A stretch of DNA of 51,591 nucleotides from a virus, in the IMG/VR virus record IMGVR_UViG_3300031951_000234, positions 1 to 51,591 of that record. The stretch is one strand, 5' to 3'. Made by a program: the position numbers and the translations under genes. The notes beneath the pieces were generated by a model, which was given only the letters and a program-made list of their open reading frames with translations, had not been told where the DNA came from and did not search any database. The stretch's first letter is position 1; every line of letters begins with the position of its first letter. Positions 20,228 to 37,736 of the stretch are shown one piece after another.

Positions 20228-21085
20228 CTACCCCACCTTCGGAATGACATCCGGCGCCGCCTTCCCCTTGACCACGCGCGGGTCGAGGTAGCATCGCGTC
20301 GTCTGCGGGCTGGCGTGATCGAGGAGCCGCTGTGCCGACCCGCCTCCGGCCTCGTAGTATGAGGCGGTTGTTTTTCGGATCTTGTGGAACTTGTCCTTCC
20401 TCCCGGCGGGCAGCCCGGCACGCTTCAGGATGATCTCCAGCCGCTTCCAGAGGTATGAGCGGCCTCTGGGCCACGGGAAGACGAGGTCGTCAGGCCCGCG
20501 GTCGCCGCGGATGGCCGCAAGCGCCGCGGCCGTCGTCTCGCTGATCTCGCGGTATACGTCGGCTCGACGACCCTTGCGATCCTCGGCGATGAACAACACA
20601 GCGCCGCCCTTCACGGCCCGCCACCTGATGCTGACCATGGCAGTGCATCGCTCGCCAGTGTCGTAGGCGAGAAGCAGCAATGCCCGCCACCACAGGCCAC
20701 CCGGGATGCCGTCGAGCATCGTCTTCTCCTCCCCGGCCGTGACTAGGAGACGCTGAAACTCTTCAGTCAGCCAGCACTCCGGCACACGGCGGGGAACGCG
20801 AATCAACGGGATCGCCGGCCAAGTGTCCACCAGTTTCCGGCGAGCGGCGAACTCCCACAGCGCACGCAGTTGGCTGCGGTCTTTCGCCGCGGTCGCCGCA
20901 GCCCGCTGCCTGACGCGATGCGCCAGGAAGCGGGCCACGGTCACCTCCTCCAGATCGTCAAGAGTCGGCGGTCTGCCGAGGTACTTGGCGAACGGATTGA
21001 TCGTCATCTGGTAGATCGACCGCGTCCTATCACTCACGCCCTTCAACGGCGCGTACACGTCGTCAAGAAACTGTTGCAGTGTCAT
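20228..21085 (-). CDS. int: Tyrosine recombinase / phage integrase
   Basis: A 285-residue tyrosine recombinase, leftward and convergent with the fibre operon. Catalytic residues can be placed: R146 in DTGERCTA, K171 in EDRKGRR, H234-x-x-R237 in FHKIRK, H257 in LLDHAS and Y266 in TRCYLD. The N-terminal ~100 residues form the SAM-like core-binding domain (TRSIYQ...LRALWEFAARR). I chose the start at 21085 (MTLQQFL); the longer frame to 21142 would overlap the neighbouring small gene. Integron integrase features (the extra helix between boxes) are not seen, so this is more likely the phage's own site-specific integrase. No attP core is recognisable. Confidence 0.85.
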   Translation of the reverse strand: MTLQQFLDDVYAPLKGVSDRTRSIYQMTINPFAKYLGRPPTLDDLEEVTVARFLAHRVRQRAAATAAKDRSQLRALWEFAARRKLVDTWPAIPLIRVPRRVPECWLTEEFQRLLVTAGEEKTMLDGIPGGLWWRALLLLAYDTGERCTAMVSIRWRAVKGGAVLFIAEDRKGRRADVYREISETTAAALAAIRGDRGPDDLVFPWPRGRSYLWKRLEIILKRAGLPAGRKDKFHKIRKTTASYYEAGGGSAQRLLDHASPQTTRCYLDPRVVKGKAAPDVIPKVG

Positions 21086-21122
21086 GGTGGCAAACCCCCA
21101 ACAAGGTGCCACCTCCATGCGT

Positions 21123-21320
21123 CTACGACACCCCCACGTCATGTGGCGGGCGACAAAAAATGTTCGTAATCCGACAGCGTGGATAGGTCATTCTGAACTT
21201 AGCGACCCAGATGGCGCGGGCCATCCTCTCTGCCTCCTTGGCAGACCTCGCCTGCACCACAAACTCGTCAGTGTCCTCCACGTCTCCGTCAATCCAATCA
21301 ATCAACGCGACCCATACCAT
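21123..21320 (-). CDS. Small hypothetical protein upstream of integrase
   Basis: A 65-residue protein beginning MVWVALIDWIDGD and ending with a basic Cys-containing tail. ATG 21320 is preferred to 21326 because AAGGAGG (21328-21334) is seven bases from it but only one base from 21326. It has the layout of small accessory proteins with an 'F-V-V-Q-A-x-S-x-K-E-A' strand-helix pair. It is read in the same direction as the integrase, about 40 bases upstream, and may be co-transcribed. No function recognised. Confidence 0.6.
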   Translation of the reverse strand: MVWVALIDWIDGDVEDTDEFVVQARSAKEAERMARAIWVAKFRMTYPRCRITNIFCRPPHDVGVS

Positions 21321-33457: not shown

Positions 33458-33745
33458 GTGCGCCGTCCCTCGGAGCGATCAATCGTCGCCAAGGGAATGG
33501 CAGAGGCGCGAAGACTGGGCTTCTTCGTCATCAAGATCCACGGCAATCAGTACCAGATGGCTGGGATACCGGACGTGCTGTGCATCAGGGACGGCCGCGC
33601 CCACTGGATTGAGTTCAAGCGTCCTGGCGAGGAACCGACGAGGCTTCAGGTGCATCGGATGCGGCAACTTGAGGGCGTCGGGTGCAGGACGACCGTCGCC
33701 TGCTCTGTGAGCGACGTGCGAACCTTCCTTGAGGGCGTGGCATGA
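33458..33745 (+). CDS. VRR-NUC domain nuclease
   Basis: A 95-residue minimal VRR-NUC endonuclease. The PD-(D/E)XK-type active site is complete: D39 in GIPDVLCI, then E52-F-K54 in WIEFKRPG, with a following Q-x-x-R helix. The length matches stand-alone phage VRR-NUC proteins, which act as structure-specific nucleases in recombination or packaging. GTG 33458 begins just after the upstream stop; GGAGG is 13 bases away. Its stop overlaps the aminotransferase start. Confidence 0.8.
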   Translation: MRRPSERSIVAKGMAEARRLGFFVIKIHGNQYQMAGIPDVLCIRDGRAHWIEFKRPGEEPTRLQVHRMRQLEGVGCRTTVACSVSDVRTFLEGVA

Positions 33746-34854
33746 TCCGCTGCGGCGAGCCACAGATCGGCGAGGCCGAGATCGCAGCCGTCACCGACGT
33801 GCTGCGGGCGGGGAACCTCACCCGCGGCGAGGAGTGCGAGCGGTTCGAGCGGGCGCTGGCCGAGCAGTTGAACGTCCGCGGCGTGCTGGCCGTCTCAAGC
33901 GGCACGGCGGCCCTGCACCTGGCCCTGCTGGCCGTCGGCGTCCAGCCCGGCGACGAGGTGATCATCCCGGCGACGACGTTCGTCGCCACGGCGAACGCGG
34001 TGCTCTACTGCCGCGCGAAGCCGGTGGTCGTGGACGTTGACAGCACGACGTGGACGATCGACGTGGGCCAGGCCATTCGGGCGATCACGAAGAAGACCAG
34101 GGCGATCGTCCCGGTGCATCTCTACGGCGTTCCGGCCGACGTGGGCGGCCTGCTGCTCGTCTGCGACGACCACTACGCCCGCACGGGCCGCCGGATTGCC
34201 ATCGTCGAGGATGCCGCCGAGGCGATTGGTGCGATGCACATGGGCCGAGAGGTCGGCGCCATCGGCGATGCGGCGGCCCTCTCGTTCTACGGCTCGAAGA
34301 CGATCACGACCGGAGAGGGCGGCGCTGTCATCTGGCACGACGGCCGCGTCGGTCTGCGGGCCTGGCATCTCCACGGCCAGGCGCAGTCCGCGACGAAGCG
34401 CTACTGGCACGAAGCGCTTGGATACAACTACCGCATGACGGAGATGCAGGCGGCCCTCGGCCGCGTGCAGTTGGAACGGCTCGAAGTGTTCCTCGAACAC
34501 CGCCGCCAGGTGTTCGCCTGGTACGACGAGATGCTTCCGCAGACGTTCAAGCGACAGGGCGTCGTCGAGAGCGACCGGCACGGCTGCTGGGCCTACGCCG
34601 TGGTCAAGGAGTACAGCGGCGAGATGAACGCGCAGAAGACGGCACTCGCGCTGCTGGAGGCCGGCATCGAGACGCGGCCGATCTTCTACCCGCTGTCGCG
34701 GTTCCCGCACTTGGCCGGAACCAGCAGCCGCGACCACTACGTCGCGCACAGACTGAACAAGCATGGCCTGGTGCTGCCAACGCACTGCGGCCTGACCCGA
34801 GAGGACGTTGAGAAGGTATGCCAAGAGTTAAGAAAAGCCGCGTGCTGTTCGTAG
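33742..34854 (+). CDS. DegT/DnrJ/EryC1/StrS-type sugar aminotransferase
   Basis: A 370-residue PLP enzyme. The catalytic lysine is K186 in SFYGSKTITTGEGG, D157 in VEDAAEA binds the pyridine nitrogen, and the P-x-T-F-V-A-T-A loop and LGYNYRMTEMQAALG motif complete the family fold. Such enzymes transfer an amino group to keto-sugars on nucleotide-sugar precursors of surface glycans. It is translationally coupled to the VRR-NUC stop, and the ATP-grasp gene starts 37 bases before its end. In a phage it might alter host glycans, decorate the virion or serve a DNA hypermodification pathway. Confidence 0.88.
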   Translation: MIRCGEPQIGEAEIAAVTDVLRAGNLTRGEECERFERALAEQLNVRGVLAVSSGTAALHLALLAVGVQPGDEVIIPATTFVATANAVLYCRAKPVVVDVDSTTWTIDVGQAIRAITKKTRAIVPVHLYGVPADVGGLLLVCDDHYARTGRRIAIVEDAAEAIGAMHMGREVGAIGDAAALSFYGSKTITTGEGGAVIWHDGRVGLRAWHLHGQAQSATKRYWHEALGYNYRMTEMQAALGRVQLERLEVFLEHRRQVFAWYDEMLPQTFKRQGVVESDRHGCWAYAVVKEYSGEMNAQKTALALLEAGIETRPIFYPLSRFPHLAGTSSRDHYVAHRLNKHGLVLPTHCGLTREDVEKVCQELRKAACCS

Positions 34855-35690
34855 GCGGCGGCCGCCGCGTCGGGCTGGCGAGGCTGTTCATCGAGCGCGG
34901 CGCGGCGGTGTACGCCTACGAGTCGAGCATCGACCAGCCCATAGCCGACGTGGCGAAGGAGGTGCTCGTCGGGCTGGACTTCGATGACCCCCAATGTGGG
35001 GAAGATATTTCTGCGTTCGTGGAACGCAGAAATATCACCCACATCGTCCCGCTAATGGACGAGGCGACGGTGGTCTGCGGCGGCCTTCCTGGGTGCATCG
35101 GCCCGCCGGCCGACGTGGCGATGCTCTGCCACGACAAACTTCACTACGCCAATTGGATGAAGGAGCATCATCCAGACCTGTATCCGACGCCGTCGATGCT
35201 CCGGTATCCGAAGTTTGCGAAGCCCCGGTTCGGCCGCAGCGCGCGGGGGACGAAGATCCTGAACCGTCCAGAGACGATCGAGATGAGTTCGGCCTGGGTG
35301 ATACAGGACTACCTCGAAGGCGACGAGGTGTCGGTGGACGTGTTCCTCCGCGGCGGCGAGTGCCTGGGCGGCGTGGCCCGCAGCCGCGACCGCGTCGAGG
35401 GCGGGGAGGTGGTTGAATCCAGGGTACTCCCTGCCGAGCAGGGAGTACCGTTGATCCTCGACGCCGCCGCCGTCGCCACCGACCTTGGCATCGTCGGCCC
35501 GGCCAACGTGCAGTTCAGGGGCGGGAAGATCATGGAGGTCAACTGCCGCTTCGGAGGCGGGTGCGTGCTCTCCGTCGCCGCCGGCTTCGACATGGTCGCG
35601 CTGGCCTTGGGCCAGAAGACCAACGGGCCGCCGTGGACGGTGACGCACGGCATGACGATGCGTCGGTATCACGCGGAGAGTTTTCGATGA
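34818..35690 (+). CDS. ATP-grasp enzyme
   Basis: A 290-residue ATP-grasp ligase. An N-terminal FVGGGRRVGLARLF stretch forms a Rossmann-like pre-grasp domain; the ATP-binding core shows KFAKPRFG, VIQDYLEGDEVSVDVF and, near the end, the metal-binding NVQFRGGKIMEVNCRFGGG. Substrate is unknown; related enzymes join amino acids or acids to sugars or peptides. It overlaps the aminotransferase by 37 bases. Two near-perfect palindromes lie inside the coding sequence (see separate entries), which is odd for a conserved gene. The final 25 residues are less conserved in appearance. Confidence 0.78.
   Translation: MPRVKKSRVLFVGGGRRVGLARLFIERGAAVYAYESSIDQPIADVAKEVLVGLDFDDPQCGEDISAFVERRNITHIVPLMDEATVVCGGLPGCIGPPADVAMLCHDKLHYANWMKEHHPDLYPTPSMLRYPKFAKPRFGRSARGTKILNRPETIEMSSAWVIQDYLEGDEVSVDVFLRGGECLGGVARSRDRVEGGEVVESRVLPAEQGVPLILDAAAVATDLGIVGPANVQFRGGKIMEVNCRFGGGCVLSVAAGFDMVALALGQKTNGPPWTVTHGMTMRRYHAESFR
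34994..35044. repeat. Long palindrome inside the ATP-grasp gene (1)
   Basis: A perfect 15-bp inverted repeat, GATATTTCTGCGTTC at 35004-35018 and its complement at 35022-35036 with a GTG loop, nested in an outer 7-bp pair (ATGTGGG at 34994-35000, CCCACAT at 35038-35044). It is in frame within the coding sequence and AT-richer than its surroundings. Confidence 0.85.
35423..35449. repeat. Palindrome inside the ATP-grasp gene (2)
   Basis: A perfect 12-bp inverted repeat, GGTACTCCCTGC at 35423-35434 and GCAGGGAGTACC at 35438-35449, with loop CGA, again in frame. A second such structure in one 870-base gene is unlikely by chance. Confidence 0.85.
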
Positions 35691-35947
35691 GCGACGACAT
35701 CGTCAACAGGCTGCGTGACCGGGCCTACAGCGGCAAAGTTCCAGACAGCCTGTCCGATGAGGCGGCGGCCGAGATCGAGCGGCTGCGGTCGCTGACGCGG
35801 TTTCAGGATGGCGTCATTCGCAGCGGCGACGTGGCGTGCCTGACACAAGCGGAGCGTGAGGCGTTGGAGGTGGCGTCAGTATGGGTGAACCCAGAGAGGC
35901 ACGCCACCCTGCGCGGCCTGCTGGAGCGGCTGGGAGGCCACCAATGA
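35687..35947 (+). CDS. Small helical protein, 'LLERL' pair copy 1
   Basis: An 86-residue protein. ATG 35687 overlaps the ATP-grasp stop. Its C-terminal part (LTQAEREALEVASVWVNPERHATLRGLLERL) is repeated, with changes, at the end of the next protein, so the genes are related by partial duplication. The N-terminal acidic helix (DDIVNRLRDRAYSG) differs. Function unknown. Confidence 0.6.
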   Translation: MSDDIVNRLRDRAYSGKVPDSLSDEAAAEIERLRSLTRFQDGVIRSGDVACLTQAEREALEVASVWVNPERHATLRGLLERLGGHQ

Positions 35948-36291
35948 CTGACCGCGACACGTTCGCCGCTGCGGCGCTGACGGGGCTTCTCGTCCACGCC
36001 AATGACAGCATTGACGAGGAGACTTTGGACACCCCAAGCGACATCGCGTACACGGCCTACCAGATGGCCGACGCCATGCTCCGCGAGCGCGACCGCACAA
36101 CTCATACGCCTGTAACGGAACCTATGCTCAAAGAAAAACGGACAGAGGGTTCTGCCGTCCTGACCGACGCGGAGCGGGAGGCGGTGCATCAGGCAGCGAT
36201 CCGGGTGGAAGCGTTGTGCCAGCGCGGATCGAAACACATGGCCGCCACCCTGCGCGGCCTGCTGGAGCGGCTGTCGCCGCCAGCGACATAA
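35944..36291 (+). CDS. Small helical protein, 'LLERL' pair copy 2
   Basis: A 115-residue protein with the start 'M-T-D-R-D-T-F-A-A-A-A-L-T-G-L-L', a phrase I associate with small proteins in environmental phage genomes. It shares a C-terminal LTDAEREAV......HMAATLRGLLERL block with the gene before. ATGA overlap. A 'Y-Q-M-A-D-A-M-L-R-E-R' helix is in the middle. Function unassigned. Confidence 0.6.
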   Translation: MTDRDTFAAAALTGLLVHANDSIDEETLDTPSDIAYTAYQMADAMLRERDRTTHTPVTEPMLKEKRTEGSAVLTDAEREAVHQAAIRVEALCQRGSKHMAATLRGLLERLSPPAT

Positions 36292-36300
36292 GGGACGAAC

Positions 36301-36504
36301 GTGTCGCAAAAACGACGAAGCGACGACAAAACACTACGCCAGCCCGCACCGGCTCCGCGCCCTACGGAGTGTTTTCGGGACGGCTGGCAGCCCCTAGGCG
36401 ACACGCAGCCCGACAACGGCTTGGCGACGATGGGACGGGGGCAGTGGTTTTTACGCATAACACGCGAGATCAACAGCCGCGAACAAAGGAGGCGGCACAC
36501 ATGA
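36301..36504 (+). CDS. Small hypothetical protein running into an attC-like site
   Basis: A 67-residue, basic, Pro-containing protein from GTG 36301, ten bases after the previous stop. Its last 16 codons read through the attC-like site (from 36455), and the stop TGA overlaps the ATG of the next gene. It may be a cassette end whose original C-terminus was replaced by an insertion, or just an open frame. An inverted pair AAAACACT / AGTGTTTT flanks its middle. Low confidence as a functional protein. Confidence 0.35.
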   Translation: MSQKRRSDDKTLRQPAPAPRPTECFRDGWQPLGDTQPDNGLATMGRGQWFLRITREINSREQRRRHT

Positions 36505-36544
36505 ACGATACGAATGAGCGGTCTGTTGCATCGGATGGTTCGCT
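36455..36544 (+). repeat. attC-like recombination site A
   Basis: Outer box GCATAAC (36455-36461), outer box GTTCGCT (36538-36544). The inner arm GATCAACAGCCGC (36468-36480) pairs with 36518-36532 (GCGG-T-CTGTTG-C-ATC) except for T36522 and C36529, which bulge out. A spacer and a 37-base variable loop complete an integron attC-like plan. The loop contains GGAGG and ATG 36501. Confidence 0.75.
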
Positions 36545-36920
36545 GGCGAACGCATTGCGGCCAGCGGTGTGGGCGATTCTTAGCGAAAATGGGCAGTATC
36601 GACTCCCCGAGATTGTTGGCGGAGCGAAGGTGTGCAAGTTTTATGGCAATGACAGATACGTTCCGCTGTACGCCGAAGAGACGTTGAACCCTGTGTTGAG
36701 GATTGCGAATGCGTGCGGGAAGTGGATTCAGGTGAGCGAGCGGCTGCCCGAAGACGGCACATGGTGCTGGGTCGATTGGGACGGCCCAGGCGAGCCGTTC
36801 CCAGCGATGCGATGCAGTAGGTCGGCTGGCGGGTGGACGAACACCGACTGCTGGGAAGACTTCGACAGAGAGGTCACGCGCTGGATGCCGCTCCCTGCAC
36901 CACCAATAGACGCCAAGTAG
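36501..36920 (+). CDS. DUF551-like protein (cassette 1)
   Basis: A 139-residue protein. The diagnostic 'K-W-I-Q-V-S-E-R-L-P-E-D-G' segment, a 'W-V-D-W' strand and the ending 'R-W-M-P-L-P-A-P-P' match the DUF551 domain, a small phage protein family of unknown function. ATG 36501 follows GGAGG (36489-36493), and both lie inside attC-like site A, so the first ~13 residues are encoded by the recombination site. The gene ends two bases before site B's outer box (AGCGAAC), the complement of site A's GTTCGCT: a cassette with matched ends. Confidence 0.7.
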   Translation: MNDTNERSVASDGSLANALRPAVWAILSENGQYRLPEIVGGAKVCKFYGNDRYVPLYAEETLNPVLRIANACGKWIQVSERLPEDGTWCWVDWDGPGEPFPAMRCSRSAGGWTNTDCWEDFDREVTRWMPLPAPPIDAK

Positions 36921-36922
36921 CC

Positions 36923-37013
36923 AGCGAACGCCCGCGATCACCAGCGGCGAACACAGGAGCATGAACATGACACAGGAATCGAATAAGCCGTCTGGTGCAT
37001 CCGGTGGTTATGA
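36923..37013 (+). repeat. attC-like recombination site B
   Basis: Outer boxes AGCGAAC (36923-36929) and GTTATGA (37007-37013). Arm GATCACCAGCGGC (36936-36948) pairs with 36987-37001 (GCCG-T-CTGGTG-C-ATC), leaving T36991 and C36998 extrahelical. Two base changes against site A are compensated on the other arm. The loop holds GGAGC and ATG 36961. Confidence 0.78.
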
Positions 37014-37188
37014 GCGCGGTCGGATTTGCCCTGTCCCGCCAGATGACCCCGTTGGCCCGTTTGTCGCAGCAATGATCCTTATCCCGCTCGTTGTCTGCTC
37101 GCTGGTTTTTGCCGCGACGGCATTCGGCAACCTGATGGCCTACGGACAGTTTTGCACGCCGCAGCACGGCGTCGTTGAGAAGCCATAA
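36961..37188 (+). CDS. Small membrane protein (cassette 2)
   Basis: A 75-residue protein with one membrane span (about residues 35-57, FVAAMILIPLVVCSLVFAATAFG). ATG 36961 after GGAG lies inside attC-like site B; a second ATG two codons on is also possible. The first ~17 residues are thus encoded by the recombination site. The cassette start TTATGA matches the outer box CCATAAC of site C in six of seven positions. No family recognised. Confidence 0.6.
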   Translation: MNMTQESNKPSGASGGYERGRICPVPPDDPVGPFVAAMILIPLVVCSLVFAATAFGNLMAYGQFCTPQHGVVEKP

Positions 37189-37270
37189 CACGCAGGATCA
37201 GCGGCTCGCGACCGCTGACGAAACTACACCGCAGACGGAATCGCGAGTCCGCTGCATCCGCTGGTTCGCA
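37183..37270 (+). repeat. attC-like recombination site C
   Basis: Outer boxes CCATAAC (37183-37189) and GTTCGCA (37264-37270). The arm GATCAGCGGCTCGCGA (37196-37211) pairs over 16 positions with 37241-37258 (TCGCGAG-T-CCGCTG-C-ATC), with T37248 and C37255 extrahelical at the same places as in sites A and B. Loop 29 bases, without a start codon. Confidence 0.78.
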
Positions 37271-37273
37271 CAG

Positions 37274-37636
37274 ATGCCATGCAACTCAGACCATCTTGAG
37301 GCGACCCACCTTGAGGCCGAGATGAGCAAGGTCGCTTGCCTGCTGGACGAACTTGACGGAAAGAAGCGAATAAATCGCGACCACTGGCGCGGCTACCACC
37401 CTCGCGTCTACAGTCAGCGGGTGAACGCCGACGAAATGACGGCCGAACTATGCTCGCGCCTTCAGGGCGTGAACGTTTCACAGTGCAGCCTTGAGATGCA
37501 GATTTGGTGGCGCGACCATCAAGAGGCAGACAAGAGGCGAGCCGAGAAAGCGATCAAGAAGGCCAAGACCGAGAAGCAGAAAAAAGCGGCACTCGCGAAA
37601 CTGACTCAGCATGAGCGGAAACTGTTGGGGCTTTGA
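37274..37636 (+). CDS. Basic coiled-coil hypothetical protein (cassette 3)
   Basis: A 120-residue protein. I chose ATG 37274, the first ATG after site C's outer box; a TTG at 37175 would extend the frame through site C and is less likely. It has an N-terminal acidic helix, a 'W-R-G-Y-H-P-R-V-Y' segment, and a Lys-rich coiled-coil end (KRRAEKAIKKAKTEKQKKAAL). The cassette ends at TGCGAAC (37643), the complement of GTTCGCA at its start, so its ends match seven of seven. Function unknown; charge suggests nucleic-acid binding. Confidence 0.55.
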   Translation: MPCNSDHLEATHLEAEMSKVACLLDELDGKKRINRDHWRGYHPRVYSQRVNADEMTAELCSRLQGVNVSQCSLEMQIWWRDHQEADKRRAEKAIKKAKTEKQKKAALAKLTQHERKLLGL

Positions 37637-37642
37637 TGGGAT

Positions 37643-37672
37643 TGCGAACCAGAATTAGTCCGCCAGTTCGCA
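37643..37672. repeat. Short inverted repeat closing the cassette array
   Basis: TGCGAAC (37643-37649) and GTTCGCA (37666-37672), a perfect 7-bp pair around 16 bases. It matches the outer box of cassette 3 but lacks the long stem of sites A-C, so it may be a truncated attC-like end. An overlapping GAATTAG / CTAATTC pair (37652-37680) is also present. Confidence 0.5.
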
Positions 37673-37736
37673 GCCTAATTCGGACGAAGGTGCGGCTTTC
37701 GGCCGCAAGAACGATGCGACGGCGGGGAAACAGGAA

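Follow-up and report, generated by a model that had tools for sequence, protein, structure and literature searches.

An integron-type cassette array with an attI-like end and no visible integron integrase in a viral genome

Introduction

Integrons have so far been treated as bacterial gene-capture systems, with stray pieces in phages. The locus described here raises the question of whether a phage can carry such a system as part of its own genome. The window (the whole stretch of DNA that was analysed) is an entire IMG/VR virus record of 51,591 bases, in which a preliminary description made from the sequence had noticed three sites built on one plan, with paired arms and with outer boxes that match across the intervening genes. 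These were regarded as attC sites of an integron-like cassette array, carried by a phage without an integrase. That description did not include the attI-like platform with which the array ends on its 3' side, the start codon and Shine-Dalgarno sequence within the site loops, or the presence of the sites in hundreds of viral loci.

The sites and cassettes of the window

The three sites are present where they had been placed, and a regular expression of the full site plan finds these three matches only in the 51.6 kb window. The cassette units are given with predicted limits at AA/C core cuts (the slash marks the cut), which rest on box matching, on the co-travel of site and gene and on a natural insertion, all described below.

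36455..36544, minus strand (classical polarity): attC-type site 1, recovered by regular expression, folding and covariance model (73.9 bits); left box GCATAAC at 36455-36461, right box GTTCGCT at 36538-36544; loop with the Shine-Dalgarno sequence and start codon of gene 1 on the plus strand
36501..36920, plus strand: cassette gene 1, 139 aa, DUF551 (PF04448, E 9.6e-9), start within site 1
36461..36928, no strand: putative cassette unit 1, 468 nt between AA/C core cuts
36923..37013, minus strand: attC-type site 2, recovered by the same three means (68.6 bits); boxes AGCGAAC at 36923-36929 and GTTATGA at 37007-37013; loop with the start codon of gene 2
36961..37188, plus strand: cassette gene 2, 75 aa, one hydrophobic stretch, no family; start within site 2, stop codon within the left box of site 3
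36929..37188, no strand: putative cassette unit 2, 260 nt between AA/C core cuts
37183..37270, minus strand: attC-type site 3, again by all three means (71.0 bits); boxes CCATAAC at 37183-37189 and GTTCGCA at 37264-37270; loop of the type without a start codon
37274..37636, plus strand: cassette gene 3, 120 aa from the ATG at 37274, no family over the cut-off; frame open also from a TTG at 37175
37189..37648, no strand: putative cassette unit 3, 460 nt between AA/C core cuts

Two loop types therefore occur in the window, with a ribosome-binding site and ATG in sites 1 and 2 and neither in site 3. Searches of the window with Rfam and for tRNA genes gave no matches.

Several observations concern the surroundings of the array. 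The two genes just 5' of it (35561-35947 and 35881-36291) both end in LRGLLERL, a motif also found in the cassette protein family with the most members (146 when linked loosely), and may be former cassettes that have lost their attC. Further 5' lie a sugar aminotransferase-like gene (33742-34854) and an ATP-grasp-like gene (34818-35690), as judged by eye. A second viral contig (IMG/VR 3300032116_009511, G066) is 99.9-100% identical to positions 1-36585 of the window and breaks off at that point, within cassette 1; variation of the array in the population would be expected to produce such a break.

Structure and covariation of the sites

The stem that had been described is found in the minimum-energy DNA fold of all three sites on both strands, including the bottom strand, whose folding had been proposed as a check. 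The stability of site 3 stands out against shuffled sequences (z -4.9 and -4.4), and sites 1 and 2 do not differ from theirs (z between -0.2 and +0.4). Since site 3 alone exceeds its shuffles, minimum free energy was dropped as evidence, and the case for a conserved structure is based on covariation. The alignment used covers 47 diverse related sites; 98.0% of its cells are paired, compared with 74.9% after shuffling, in agreement with the covarying arms of the preliminary description. The covariation score is 0.543, as against 0.121 for shuffled alignments, and it does not exceed 0.092 if the partners are displaced by 1-3 columns; 9 of the 17 pairs change on both sides. The two unpaired bases noticed earlier also share one arm and keep their positions from site to site, and 189 of 197 sites have C as the base beside ATC.

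In their layout the sites have the two box pairs of attC (R''/R' and L''/L') around a covarying imperfect hairpin, spacers of about 5 nt (R''-L'') and 6 nt (L'-R'), and an extra-helical L'' base. The R' consensus GTTRRRY is not followed by the window boxes, which keep the GTT core and have lost RRRY (GTTCGCT, GTTATGA and GTTCGCA on the plus strand; GTTCGCT, GTTATGC and GTTATGG on the minus strand). Planctomycete host arrays beside intI depart from GTTRRRY in the same way, so the mismatch counts against the proteobacterial consensus and not against an attC of planctomycete type. The folded single strand would be the substrate for recombination. A class of short sites (48-58 nt, e.g. L045 1483-1531 and L112 3085-3133) was also observed, in which boxes, spacers and stem are kept and the loop is nearly gone.

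Distribution in phages and planctomycetes

A covariance model built from the 47 related sites, and thus trained on this family itself, matches 262 sites in 87 viral loci. Regular-expression scans of IMG/VR gave at least 561 sites in at least 244 viral loci; the INPHARED phage collection, searched with the window array, gave no match. The same pattern is found in possible host genomes, namely Rhodopirellula, Neorhodopirellula, Stieleria, Thalassoglobus and uncultured planctomycete relatives. On planctomycete loci the covariance model has 132 matches, part of them repeated through overlapping loci, and within one planctomycete order 23 of 58 sampled genomes are matched by the site model.

Eight of the 16 host genomes with pattern matches have an IntI over the TIGR02249 cut-off. 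Seven of the eight loci centred on those IntI genes contain sites, the match in one of the loci (L249) being partial (E about 6e-5). Comparison among these loci therefore supports the assignment of the window sites to the integron attC type, of the kind found beside IntI in planctomycete chromosomes. The preliminary description of an integron-like array in a phage, with attC sites and no integrase, is upheld by this, as the same site family flanks planctomycete IntI genes. The combination that had been named as speaking against it, a lack of covariance support together with the same repeats in unrelated non-cassette contexts, was not found. In one small planctomycete genome (G091), two IntI genes and many sites were seen (contigs C2, C4, C10, C11, C22, C23 and C25, i.e. 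L527-L532, L539 and L542), and the breaks of its contigs at arrays suggest a large fragmented integron.

The attI-like end of the array

At the 3' side of cassette 3 the array ends in a further feature.

37643..37715, minus strand: array end, box TGCGAAC followed by the attI-like platform (minus strand ...TTAGGCTGCGAACTGGCGGACTAATTCTG/GTTCGCA)

The box TGCGAAC (37643-37649) had been listed as the third of the matching cassette ends. Its match to GTTCGCA of site 3 stands, and its reading as one more cassette end of the same kind does not, as it is here that the array meets the attI-like sequence. A fourth attC containing this box was considered and rejected, since the site model does not match 37643-37715, a stretch that looks like the ends of other arrays. 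The end class of the window is also present in L005, L075, L082, L101, L320 and L354, and the commonest form of the conserved array end reads, on the minus strand, ...GTTATCCGGCAGGG...AGAAACACTG/GTT.

Three end classes of the phage arrays were turned into profiles, and 1.15 Mb of host sequence was searched with them. The best match of class I lies beside IntI in one host genome (G001, L244, E 7e-5), and the best matches of class II lie beside IntI in another (G116, L543 and L534, E 1e-7 to 5e-7). For class III, to which the window belongs, the top match is the start of an IntI contig (L539), and is weak (E 0.06). When new contigs were sought by the attI motif alone, 16 of the 18 that extend at least 300 nt upstream of it, and so could be tested, carry a site on that side. 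The conserved ends, the matches adjacent to IntI and the upstream sites together indicate that the array ends are attI-like, and they may function as attI. The exact phage attI motif does not occur in 297 related host genomes, so that these genomes gave no prophage with an end of class I. In two viral loci (L263 6595-6612 and L264 4528-4545) the attI-like motif follows a cassette-type gene and box with no recognisable site upstream; in these arrays the last attC has possibly decayed.

The recombinase

No integron integrase had been visible in the window, and this is borne out by the lack of a TIGR02249 match. Across array-bearing viral contigs IntI exceeds the cut-off in 1 of 51 and 0 of 46, i.e. 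it is absent in 96 of 97, although most of these contigs are fragments and the absence of intI is weak evidence for each one singly. The window, with three sites and no IntI, thus has the composition of a CALIN (at least two attC sites without intI), and the intI of a complete integron is present in 1 of the 97 phage contigs. Because IntI is absent in 96 of 97 contigs, a host IntI acting in trans is proposed as the simplest enzyme, and probably is the one involved. The window does encode one tyrosine recombinase, outside the array.

20228..21142, minus strand: phage-type tyrosine recombinase, phrog_1 integrase, PF00589

This enzyme was considered as an IntI and rejected: it fits the ordinary phage integrase phrog_1, the Xer models are far below cut-off and there is no TIGR02249 match. 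That such a phage enzyme, integrase or Xer-like, has acquired attC/attI specificity and moves the cassettes is unlikely, even though a PF00589 recombinase is present in the window and a tyrosine recombinase other than IntI in 26 of 51 array-bearing phage contigs. No such enzyme is seen in half of the contigs, the window enzyme has the phrog_1 affinity just described and lies about 16 kb from the array, and the same site family sits beside IntI in planctomycetes.

We therefore read the window, with considerable confidence, as three attC-led cassettes joined to an attI-like platform without an integrase, forming an integron-type array in a temperate phage, for which the recombinase is most likely a host IntI. 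The hosts of these phages are probably planctomycetes.

The single exception among the 97 contigs (G036, L486, IMG/VR 3300020042_010175) encodes its own IntI, with 339 bits against a cut-off of 265. The contig carries genes for a lambda-type portal, a P22-like coat and a tape-measure protein, and its IntI gene is beside that of the portal. An attC-type site of a divergent class was observed beside the IntI gene (487-584 and 1365-2357 of L486), and the same divergent class is present in L036.

Cassette boundaries, polarity and movement

The ends of the window cassettes match across the genes at 7/7, 6/7 and 7/7 positions, exactly as described earlier. When the right box of each site is compared with the left box of the next, all four variable box bases match in 134 of 172 phage gaps (shuffled mean 26.2, maximum 45) and in 80 of 97 host gaps (shuffled mean 6.3), and the matches are therefore not due to chance.

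The window sites have a left spacer of 6 nt and a right spacer of 5 nt, with both extra bases on the right arm. The order in attC-aadA1, checked beside aadA1 of plasmid R100, is R'', 5 nt, a longer L'', L', 6 nt and R', with the extra base of the L'' arm at position 4, and the window sites share this layout on the minus strand. By its layout, the classical attC polarity in the window is that of the minus strand, which answers the polarity question raised in the preliminary description, and from which it follows that the phage genes are inverted relative to attC.

For 15 gene families found in differing neighbourhoods, identity over outer arms and spacers is 0.92 for the left site and 0.72 for the right, with a background of 0.76, and the left site is the more similar in 14 of the 15 (Wilcoxon p 0.001). 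Only close homologues in differing neighbourhoods are informative here; around all homologous genes, distant ones included, the sites gave no clear similarity signal (mean 0.55 versus 0.51). The left site travels with its gene in host arrays likewise. The layout and the co-travel of the left site together indicate that, read in the phage sense, the cassette unit is a site followed by its downstream gene, with cuts at AA/C, and that gene and attC move as one, as in a gene cassette. Each cassette would thus contain one attC and the following gene, bounded by AA/C (G/TT on the attC top strand), and the entry point for new cassettes would be the attI-like site, which closes the phage operon on its 3' side.

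Cassette order and neighbourhood vary between phage contigs, and two loci (L112 and L094) have some cassettes in common, set beside different neighbours. Beyond the attI-like site, two contigs from different samples (L080 and L110) are identical for 2,967 nt; they also agree fully over 972 nt of the preceding cassette region, and what sets them apart is a single cassette of 788 nt placed at TGAGAAC/. Here one cassette has been gained or lost in nature, at the attI-like site and exactly at the predicted core. In further contig pairs, flanks of more than 93% identity enclose different cassettes.

Recombination within the sites occurs too. In several families the loop of the left site, and sometimes its arms, differ although the gene is 93-100% identical. 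Such exchange is not predicted by IntI cleavage at the box, and homologous recombination in the arms may be its cause. In three pairs of loci (L329/L345, L077/L355 and L045/L394) the arms and spacers are alike, the loops unlike or deleted and the genes nearly identical, which suggests that a loop can be swapped or lost while the arms stay the same. It could accordingly be argued that the genes as a whole are swapped by ordinary homologous recombination between conserved repeats, the sites now being passive. We consider this less probable still than movement by a phage recombinase: the joints fall at a 3-nt AAC core and the variable box bases obey the cassette rule, the gain or loss of one entire cassette took place at the attI-like site, which has in common with a cassette junction only the box core and not the attC sequence, and the compensatory changes in the stem mean that the fold has been kept.

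Inverted genes and start codons within attC

In phage gaps the longer open reading frame runs along the window plus strand in 115 cases, with 6 clear opposite cases, so that the gene 3' end does not point toward the attC as in a classical gene cassette (115 inverted to 6 classical). In host gaps the inverted and classical counts are 16 and 52, and in a second host set 5 and 24. The genes flanking phage arrays have the same direction as the cassette genes in ratios of 119:30 upstream and 92:24 downstream, indicating that the cassette genes follow phage transcription and that the attC points against it. The phage would thus transcribe the array against the attC polarity, with the consequence that attC comes before the gene instead of after it. 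The strand expected to recombine (the attC bottom strand) would be the coding strand of the phage genes, which is a possible reason for the inversion.

Among 197 phage sites of at least 84 nt, an ATG that opens at least 30 codons past the site is found within the loop in 156; 143 have a Shine-Dalgarno-like sequence and 146 are in one frame. The corresponding numbers in host sites are 3 of 111 and 3 of 40, none with a Shine-Dalgarno sequence. Comparison of phage with host sites thus suggests that most phage attC loops have gained a Shine-Dalgarno sequence and start codon, so that the site may double as a translation start and, where translation begins in the loop as predicted, attC would encode the first ~14 residues of the cassette protein. 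One sequence would then be under two constraints, as a DNA hairpin and as a translation start.

Start-associated repeats exist in cluster K mycobacteriophages, and the ribosome-binding site and ATG that most phage sites have in their loop could be taken to mean that the sites are translation-start repeats only, with no role in recombination, but this is scarcely credible: sites that lack a start (site 3 of the window) or almost lack a loop keep boxes, spacers and stem, the box matching, the shuffled cassettes and the attI-like end would be left unexplained, and the single-cassette difference between L080 and L110 contradicts it.

Cargo and implications

The cassette proteins are small, and few of 93 representatives match families. 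Those recognised are DNA methyltransferases, HNH nucleases, DUF551 (gene 1 of the window), a Lar-like restriction alleviation protein and HTH proteins, and many others are small and without a family. The cargo would be expected to benefit the phage, and the cassettes may be a marked-out store of counter-defence genes.

To the reading of the window as an integron-type array may be added a broader one, towards which we lean somewhat: that planctomycete phages have evolved their own branch of integron, with an attI and cassette platform, the use of host IntI, a separate cassette pool and an attC turned round to serve as both recombination site and translation start. If so, the cassette pool would be largely separate from that of the host, and a captured gene would be expressed at once from the phage operon. 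Arrays ended by attI-like sequences without intI, over hundreds of viral loci, offer a testable case of phages using a host recombinase on their own gene content, and phages that are nearly identical but differ in their cassettes make it possible to measure, in natural populations, how often and where capture takes place.

Comparison with known systems

The present arrays are like the sedentary chromosomal integrons of planctomycetes, for which a taxon-specific attC model is available (Ghaly et al. 2021, PMC8352920), in site family, box rule and attI-like ends. The host arrays differ in that intI is present, the genes are mostly in attC polarity and the loop has no start codon with Shine-Dalgarno sequence. 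With the class 1 integron (attI1 and attC-aadA1 of R100) they share the 7 nt box, the spacers of 5 and 6 nt, the G/TT core and an L'' arm that is one base longer, at position 4; attI1 has GTTACGCAGCAGGG where the phage array ends have GTTATCCGGCAGGG-like repeats. Unlike the class 1 integron, the phage arrays have no intI and an inverted gene order, their extra L'' bases are G and A and not C, and their boxes are GTTCNNN and not GTTRRRY. The exceptional phage contig G036 resembles them in having an attC-type site, of the divergent class, and an attI-resembling sequence, but differs in its own IntI (339 bits, cut-off 265).

A search of the open-licence literature found no report of inverted cassettes, of start codons in attC, of planctomycete phage integrons or of attI-like ends on such phage arrays. 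Qi et al. (2023, PMC9892861) reported 17 CALINs among 10,705 NCBI phage genomes, demonstrated that phage attC sites are recombined by IntI1 in E. coli, and found the cassettes of two virulent phages to be oriented as is typical of bacterial arrays. Those CALINs are, like the arrays described here, attC clusters without intI in phage genomes; the present arrays differ from them in the attI-like end, the inverted genes, the start codons in attC and their occurrence in several hundred viral loci. CALINs and integron fragments in phages are therefore already known (PMC9892861), and the present arrays are a variant of them.
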